Assembly: GCF_026427595.1 (NCBI RefSeq)
Contig: NZ_CP101527.1
Span: 2,327,501 to 2,391,500 of the forward strand
Length of the DNA: 64,000 nt
Reading direction: 5' to 3'
Origin: Alkalimarinus sediminis
GTDB taxonomy: Bacteria; Pseudomonadota; Gammaproteobacteria; Pseudomonadales; Oleiphilaceae
Part shown: piece by piece, positions 1 through 1,533 of the stretch
Position numbering within the stretch: position 1 is the stretch's first letter
Layout: each line of letters begins with the position of its first letter
Translations under genes and position numbers: made by a program
Notes under the pieces: model-generated
Seen by the model: only the letters and a program-made list of their open reading frames with translations
Database searches by the model: none
Told to the model about the DNA's origin: nothing

Positions 1-111
1 GATACCCCTTTGTTTACTATTCACTCTGAAGCGCCAGGAGAGCTGCAATACGCCATTAACTTCTTAAATGATCACCCTGGTGCGATCAGCATAGAGGAGG
101 AAAGCATTTGA
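1..111 (+). CDS. Putative thymidine phosphorylase (archaeal AMP-phosphorylase-like), C-terminal fragment
   Basis: Only the last 36 codons lie in the window; the 5' part is cut off by the window edge. The reading frame starts DTPLFTIHSEAPGELQYAIN and ends in TGA at 109-111. A 'PLFTIHAE-x-x-GEL-x-YA' tail is typical of the C-terminal domain of pyrimidine nucleoside phosphorylases, including the archaeal-type (TIGR02645-like) proteins found in many gammaproteobacteria. The family splits a nucleoside or nucleotide with phosphate to give a base and a ribose phosphate. The stop codon overlaps the TTG start of the next gene (TTGA), so the two are probably translationally coupled. The subfamily is inferred from a short tail plus the PRPP-synthetase neighbour. 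Confidence 0.6.
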   Translation, partial: DTPLFTIHSEAPGELQYAINFLNDHPGAISIEEESI

Positions 112-998
112 AACCGCTACTATTCACACTATTCCACGAAAATAGCTCACTCTCCACTCGACTCATAGAGAGCGGCCAATTTGAGCTAGGAGAAACTGAT
201 ATTCGTCGCTTCCCGGATGGCGAAAGTTATGTAAGGACCCTCACCCCTGTTAATCAACGCAAAGTGATTATTCTAGCTAACCTGCACCACCCTGACGACA
301 AGCTATTACCCCTACTCTTTCTTTGCCAAACCTTAAAAGATCAGCATGCAGCACATATCAGCTTAGTCGCACCATATCTACCTTATATGCGACAAGATAA
401 ACGCTTTCATACAGGAGAGTGCATCACCTCAGCAGTGTTTGCCTCTCTATTAAGCCCTGCTATAGACGAACTAATCACGATAGACCCACACCTTCACCGC
501 TATCATTCACTATCAGAAATCTATAACAGCAAAACTCAAACGCTAAAGGCCGATAACACTATCGCAAACTGGATAAAAGATCATATAGAAAAGCCCTTGA
601 TTGTAGGGCCTGATAGTGAGAGCGAACAGTGGGCTGCAGCAACCGCCGAGATGATTGGCTGCCCTCACCTTGTTTTACTGAAAGAGCGATTTGGCGATCG
701 CGAAGTCAAAATATCAACACCAGAGGCCGATACACTGACAGATCATACACCTGTACTCGTTGACGATATTATTTCAACCGGCAGAACAATGATAGAAACA
801 GCGGCAATGCTAAAGCAAGAAGGTTTTAGACCCCCAATCTGCATTGGCGTGCATGCGGTTTTTTCAGAAGGTGACTATCAAGCGCTAGCAAAAAGTGATG
901 TTGAAAAGGTCATCACCTGCAATACTATCGAACATCATAGTAACGGCATCAACCTGTCTGAAGTCATTATCCACGCACTAGGCTTGCAAGCTAACTAA
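108..998 (+). CDS. Ribose-phosphate pyrophosphokinase-like protein (class III-like)
   Basis: PRPP synthetase family, 296 aa, cytoplasmic; the family makes PRPP from ribose 5-phosphate and ATP. Visible motifs are FPDGE (35-39), RQDKRF in the ATP-binding region (95-100), DPHLH (126-130) and the PRPP-binding loop VDDIISTGRT (218-227). It is shorter than the housekeeping bacterial Prs (about 315 aa), and PYMRQDKRFHTGE resembles archaeal class III enzymes more than the bacterial form. It starts at TTG inside the stop of the upstream phosphorylase gene, with the GGAGGAAAG stretch (97-105) as ribosome binding site. It is probably a paralogue of housekeeping prs, joining nucleoside phosphorolysis to PRPP formation; substrate choice is inferred. 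Confidence 0.85.
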   Translation: MKPLLFTLFHENSSLSTRLIESGQFELGETDIRRFPDGESYVRTLTPVNQRKVIILANLHHPDDKLLPLLFLCQTLKDQHAAHISLVAPYLPYMRQDKRFHTGECITSAVFASLLSPAIDELITIDPHLHRYHSLSEIYNSKTQTLKADNTIANWIKDHIEKPLIVGPDSESEQWAAATAEMIGCPHLVLLKERFGDREVKISTPEADTLTDHTPVLVDDIISTGRTMIETAAMLKQEGFRPPICIGVHAVFSEGDYQALAKSDVEKVITCNTIEHHSNGINLSEVIIHALGLQAN

Positions 999-1310: not shown

Positions 1311-1328
1311 TGTAAGAGATCTCTCACA
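1311..1328 (+). promoter_or_regulatory. GacA/UvrY box upstream of the Csr/Rsm RNA
   Basis: TGTAAGAGATCTCTCACA matches the GacA upstream activating sequence TGTAAG-N6-CTTACA with one mismatch. Its centre lies about 65-68 bases upstream of the inferred RNA start near 1384-1388, the usual spacing for rsm genes. A weak -10 (TACTAT/TATACA, 1372-1380) lies between, and no good -35 is visible, as expected for an activator-dependent promoter. Confidence 0.75.
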
Positions 1329-1383
1329 GCGATTTGAGAAATATCCTACATACACGAACTATGTACTTACGTACTATACACAT

Positions 1384-1533
1384 CGTCAGGACGACATACG
1401 GTTTTCTTTAACAGGAAACGGTAGTTAACGTATGGATGCGGACAAGGAAGTAAACATGGATGGCCGGTTACCTAGGGAATGGTAAGGGAAGCATCAAACT
1501 GACGAGGCGCTGCATGGATGCAGCGCCTTTTTT
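1384..1533 (+). ncRNA. Csr/Rsm-type regulatory RNA (CsrA/RsmA-sequestering)
   Basis: This stretch of about 150 nt has no convincing ORF but contains nine GGA triplets (1389, 1414, 1434, 1440, 1446, 1458, 1476, 1487 and 1516), most within A(N)GGA, the core of the CsrA/RsmA binding site. The last one sits in the loop of the terminator hairpin. A GacA box lies at the proper distance upstream and an intrinsic terminator closes the transcript. This is the architecture of RsmX/Y/Z and CsrB RNAs, which titrate CsrA and so release repressed mRNAs (motility, biofilm, secondary metabolism). The subtype cannot be decided from the sequence. The 5' end is estimated from the promoter. Confidence 0.8.
1506..1533 (+). 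terminator. Rho-independent terminator of the Csr/Rsm RNA
   Basis: Perfect stem GGCGCTGC/GCAGCGCC with loop ATGGAT, followed by six T residues (1528-1533). The loop carries a GGA motif, so it may also bind CsrA. Confidence 0.9.

Follow-up and report, generated by a model that had tools for sequence, protein, structure and literature searches.

A predicted GacA-driven, CsrA-titrating small RNA, present in four genome copies, in a bacterium with a single CsrA

The 64-kb stretch of Alkalimarinus sediminis DNA analysed here (the window, 64,000 nucleotides) contains a predicted small-RNA gene that we consider, with high confidence, to encode a GacA-driven CsrA-titrating RNA, acting with sister copies and with two further RNA types (B and C) against the single CsrA of the host. 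This RNA very probably soaks up this global regulator; judged from its sequence, it is an ordinary RNA of its kind with a new sequence, and it is shared with related genera. The initial annotation had proposed a GacA-driven RNA of the Csr/Rsm type, a reading that the GGA motifs, the recurrence of the box in other genera, and the presence of CsrA, GacA, and a BarA-type kinase in the host support well at the level of sequence. The features of the region are collected in Table 1.

Table 1. Features of the predicted small-RNA gene and its surroundings (window coordinates)
Feature	Position	Strand	Remarks
Ribose-phosphate pyrophosphokinase gene	108-998	+	
Conserved 56-codon frame, divergent to RNA	1194-1024	-	
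GacA/UvrY box 1, TGTAAG-N6-CTCACA	1311-1328	+	Centre ~64 nt before predicted start
Box 2, degenerate, GacA-like	1333-1350	+	22 bp after box 1, start to start; centre ~-42
Predicted -10 element, TACTAT	1372-1377	+	TANTAT in 16/18 type-A rows
Predicted CsrA-titrating small RNA, ~150 nt	1384-1533	+	Nine GGA; fold z = -5.1; four genome copies; predicted start
Core, conserved, six GGA (1434-1489)	1432-1492	+	Alignments A2 and A3
Hairpin UUACC..GGUAA, GGA 1476 in loop	1468-1485	+	RNAalifold, 18 copies
Intrinsic terminator, GGA 1516 in loop	1504-1533	+	Four pairs with two-sided changes
O-antigen-ligase-like gene, convergent to RNA	2990-1551	-	

The nine GGA triplets originally counted in about 150 nt, one of them in the terminator loop, were confirmed at positions 1389, 1414, 1434, 1440, 1446, 1458, 1476, 1487, and 1516, the last being the one in the loop. 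Six of the nine read ANGGA, the CsrA-type binding motif (PMC2375449). This density is found at a single place in the window when both strands are scanned, the maximum on the minus strand being seven GGA per 150 nt, and nine GGA were reached in 0.5% of 10,000 shuffles of the 150 nt in which base composition was kept fixed. The intrinsic terminator has 11 pairs, a 4-nt loop (TGGA), and a terminal run of six T, two of which are counted in the stem.

The fold of the RNA strand beats 200 of 200 dinucleotide shuffles. In the consensus structure of 18 copies obtained with RNAalifold, GGA 1476 and GGA 1516 both lie in hairpin loops, and in the window copy GGA 1476 has an unpaired probability of 1.0. 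The expectation that the GGA motifs lie in loops held on average, the mean unpaired probability over the 18 copies being 0.71 for GGA versus 0.50 for other purines, but not for each motif: in the window copy, GGA 1414 (0.00) and GGA 1458 (0.16) are predicted to be mostly paired, and GGA 1487 (0.47) about half paired. Two-sided changes were observed in 6 of the 27 predicted pairs, four of the six in the terminator, and the covariation support for the predicted fold is thin.

Multiple GGA motifs are conserved, and many of them are exposed in the predicted fold. Conservation across relatives, which had been put forward as a check on the assignment, spoke in its favour: across 18 copies every GGA except 1414 is invariant (eight of nine), and the base before GGA 1434, 1446, and 1476 takes all four letters. 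Invariant GGA beside a freely varying preceding base would be as expected of CsrA sites. Invariant columns amount to 24 of 27 in GGA versus 42 of 124 elsewhere, a comparison that overstates independence because the 18 copies are related.

The near-consensus box originally noted stands. Box 1 reads TGTAAGAGATCTCTCACA, is palindromic, fits TGTRRGNNATNNCTYACA with zero mismatches, and is identical at every letter to the reverse complement of the csrB UvrY site in Escherichia coli, TGTGAGAGATCTCTTACA; it lies upstream of the predicted promoter. Perfect matches to TGTRRGNNATNNCTYACA occur at three places in the 4.23-Mb genome, each before a copy of the window RNA, and the box of the fourth copy has one mismatch. 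With up to one mismatch allowed, the box pattern gave 10 and 11 matches on the two strands of the genome, the reversed pattern 2 on each. Five near-box places (163284, 231720, 2204590, 2976692, and 3147468) were set aside; the 260 nt that follow each of these boxes contain no more than four GGA on either strand.

Box 2 departs from the widened consensus by one mismatch in the window copy and, over 17 type-A rows from genus g1, by one to four. Among offsets of 19 to 59, an offset of 22 gave the best second site, with a mean mismatch of 4.75 versus 7.34 for the next best, over 32 upstream segments of which two are both strands of one site. None of the six rows of genus g5 has a second box at this offset (7 to 10 mismatches there). 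The distances of the two boxes from the predicted start are those expected for two dimers on one helix face, and in such a layout the nearer box would adjoin RNA polymerase. The exceptions to the -10 pattern read TACCAT (G3d and G36, 2 of 18 type-A rows), and no clear -35 element was seen upstream of the window RNA.

The box was also followed into other genera with a model, R1, that covers the 3' core only. R1 was trained on g1 rows and on a single row from each of G022 and G036, which makes its recovery of g5 and g4 less than fully independent; the box is absent from the model, and boxes upstream of R1 matches therefore constitute independent evidence. With one located match per genome (49 loci with full 1500-base flanks, g1 and G036 excluded), a box within two mismatches was found upstream at 15 of 49 loci versus 2 of 196 control segments drawn from the same loci. 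The nine strongest located matches (L078 to L086) all carry the box, eight of them at 83 to 89 nt before the core; outside these nine it was found at 6 of 40 loci.

The genome contains four copies of the window RNA (type A), each behind a box. The box of the window copy lies at genome position 2328811, two copies form a tandem pair (1995960-1996184 and 1997136-1997360) beside a gene that by eye is argG-like, and the fourth is located at approximately 3594413-3594612. The initial annotation had called the RNA "the (or one)" CsrA sponge of this organism; the second wording is right, since the window RNA has three sister copies and belongs to a set of about six candidates rather than being the sole sponge. 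Type A is present in all five g1 genomes, the model matches in G000 to G004 numbering 4, 5, 3, 3, and 6, counts that take in the 3' part of one split G001 copy as well as weaker or partial copies. That split copy is the syntenic counterpart of the window RNA (714192-715680; L023, L029, and L063); the element inserted into it carries two transposase frames and is taken to be IS3-like. This is a natural loss of that copy, comparable with intact strains.

Of 163 genomes in the family, the type-A model finds a match at E <= 0.01 in 28 (five of g1, seven of g5, four of g4, one of g14, and eleven, weakly, of g12), and in the order sample 30 of 391 genomes match, own included, the others at E 3e-5 or weaker; where a search took in more than 40 genomes, stricter filters applied, and these lose weak matches. 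The eleven g12 loci were treated as chance because they are weak model matches and none has a box within two mismatches. Such a box is present at 4 of the 27 order loci (L135, L139, L149, and L154). The g5 genomes (6.6 to 7.2 Mb) contain two to seven type-A matches each, some arrayed about 235 to 320 bp apart. A scan of genome contigs matched the relatives Hahellaceae BB19, Oleiphilaceae SRR3933263_bin.5, and Oleiphilus SRR5469033_bin.65; 7 of its 14 stretches came from other groups (e.g., Prevotellaceae and Pedobacter) and were taken as chance.

The next large gene downstream is convergent, and the RNA is therefore not its leader. On the other side, the divergent 56-codon frame stands beside the RNA in all five g1 genomes, and the frame was found in four genomes of g4 as well, which makes 9 of 58. 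Searches of Pfam and NCBIfam with this frame gave no match; it is a putative small protein, possibly sharing a regulatory region with the RNA. A palindrome, TCCGTAAG-N8-CTTACGGA, at 1248-1271, directly upstream of the TTGACA that precedes the 56-codon frame, could be an operator, and an element resembling it is present in G001.

Two further sponge candidates were found outside the window, for neither of which did the Rfam search reach a family. Type B has its box at 2323707, 5.1 kb upstream of the window box, and an RNA region at 2323707-2323900 (L059) with seven GGA in 131 nt and a weaker site at offset 23 from the box (four mismatches). It is present in all five g1 genomes, and a sixth matching genome of 58, G013, matches the box region only; the spacing between types A and B is 4.9 to 5.1 kb in G000 to G003 and 3.6 kb in G004. 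Its fold is no better than shuffles (z = 0.43), and it is a candidate by virtue of its box and its conservation in 5/5 genus genomes. Hydrolase-like genes flank the region (L059 3739-5130 and 5970-7325, both on the minus strand); Beta-Casp and RMMBL domains, which are typical of RNA processing, are present in the second, and the first resembles it by eye.

Type C is a long CsrB-like RNA predicted at 2987256-2987776 (locus L060, 2987071-2987776), with 24 GGA in 521 nt and a fold z of -2.4. Its box is centred at about -177 and has weaker sites on either side (three and four mismatches), the far-side one, with four, at offset 23. Each of the five g1 genomes carries it, G001 and G004 in pieces; three g5 genomes match over a stretch from at or near its predicted start and, with G013 and G010, bring the total to 10 of 58. 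In three aligned genomes the CUUCGUANGGAUACGAAG stem halves are constant and N is variable. Taken together, six CsrA sponges of three sequence types (four of A, one each of B and C) are predicted from sequence against one CsrA.

The host has the regulators that such RNAs call for, CsrA and a GacS/GacA system. A single CsrA was found in the genome, its gene lying between a lysC-like gene and a tRNA-like sequence (both read by eye). GacA shares 55% identity with UvrY and clears the cut-off of the UvrY/SirA/GacA model (309.9 versus 280 bits); a uvrC-like frame, read by eye, directly follows gacA, as uvrC follows uvrY in E. coli. A kinase with a BarA-type sCache_4 domain is also present, and among 14 control genomes sCache_4 matches E. 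coli only. The best match of this kinase is the BarA model, at 641.5 bits with 676 of 987 residues scored, which is below the cut-off of 890.

From these observations we infer the transcription start, the dependence on GacA, CsrA binding, and titration. A GacS/BarA-type kinase would phosphorylate GacA, which would then bind box 1 and activate the RNA gene, probably also binding the weaker box 2. The gene would give an untranslated RNA of about 150 nt, able to bind several CsrA dimers through its exposed (A)NGGA motifs and so to free CsrA-repressed mRNAs. The window RNA, its three sister copies, the second short RNA, and the long CsrB-like RNA would all act against the single CsrA. Two promoter layouts can be distinguished: the short type A has paired boxes at about -64 and -42, the long type C a cluster of boxes at about -177. 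It is conceivable, though we regard it as rather doubtful, that the six sponges respond to different levels of phosphorylated GacA, so that CsrA targets would be released by degrees and not all at once.

Other explanations of the locus were considered. A GacA-driven RNA that acts mainly by base-pairing with mRNAs, with CsrA binding secondary, would be consistent with the invariance of 42 of the 124 non-GGA columns; however, invariance is focused on GGA while the adjacent bases vary freely, which is unexpected under mRNA pairing, and we hold this account to be very unlikely. The same small probability is given to a window copy that is present but nearly silent, its contribution being minor because the sister copies suffice. 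The split G001 copy indicates that the window copy can be lost, whereas in the window genome the box, the -10 element, the GGA set, and the terminator look intact.

Least probable, to the point of being almost negligible, is a gene for a very small protein. The initial annotation had stated that there is no open reading frame; two short frames do exist, of 46 and 17 codons, neither of them conserved across aligned copies, and both were rejected as genes. The 46-codon ATG frame (1288-1428) spans the GacA box and the 5' part of the RNA, beginning upstream of the box, and although 7 of 19 aligned copies are free of inner stops, the other 12 contain them. Of 18 copies, 12 keep the 17-codon frame from 1432 open up to a shared stop, but only 4 have its start codon and 6 show length changes of 1 nt. 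The locus has an intrinsic terminator and no conserved reading frame, and the preferred reading remains that of a GacA-driven CsrA sponge.

This RNA would fill a gap left blank by Rfam in this bacterial family, and combining the core model with the box would allow such genes to be annotated family-wide. The three sequence types and six predicted genes, against one CsrA, also point to the extent that sponge multiplication can reach. The covariance search with the CsrB, RsmX, RsmY, and RsmZ models, suggested at the outset, did not place the RNA in a named family: at the Rfam cut-off there was no match in the window, nor in 14 loci including relatives. The best lax match of the window RNA was RsmY, at 14.9 bits versus a cut-off of 57, and lax matches to LINC00901, mir-297, and the like were taken as chance. 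Since the cut-off is not reached, the RNA is RsmX/Y/Z- or CsrB-like in its predicted working and lies outside every Rfam family. No description of it was found among the papers listed for Hahella, Oleiphilus, Marinobacter, and Oceanospirillales, mostly outside subscription journals, and a prediction paper names neither Hahella nor Marinobacter in its accessible text (PMC5568370).

Multiplied CsrA sponges are an already known phenomenon. In Vibrio, sibling csrB copies arose by duplication, with four csrB in Vibrio tasmaniensis (PMC6262261), and new Csr RNAs are still emerging in marine bacteria, e.g., Pseudoalteromonas fuliginea (PMC11882849). CsrR1 and CsrR2 of the marine gammaproteobacterium Alcanivorax dieselolei, described as predicted CsrA-related RNAs, share with the window RNA the possession of several GGA, a likeness by description (PMC9788540, the main text of which does not use the term GacA). 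The window RNA resembles RsmX, RsmY, and RsmZ of Pseudomonas, which are likewise reported as short RNAs with several (A)NGGA and a GacA-type palindrome upstream (PMC2375449), and differs from them in lacking an Rfam match at the cut-off. Like the window RNA, rsmX has been multiplied, up to five copies being described in P. syringae and a tandem arrangement in P. brassicacearum (PMC7911923). With E. coli csrB it shares an identical UvrY palindrome and a second, weaker site just downstream: the csrB site is reported to have its centre at -183/-182 and to be followed 5 bp downstream by a further TGTAGGAGA (PMC4682653), and both are visible in the E. coli K-12 sequence. The two differ in scale: csrB has a length of 369 nt and a box at -183, the window RNA a length of about 150 nt and a box at about -64; the csrB-like layout is instead found in the separate predicted long RNA of type C.
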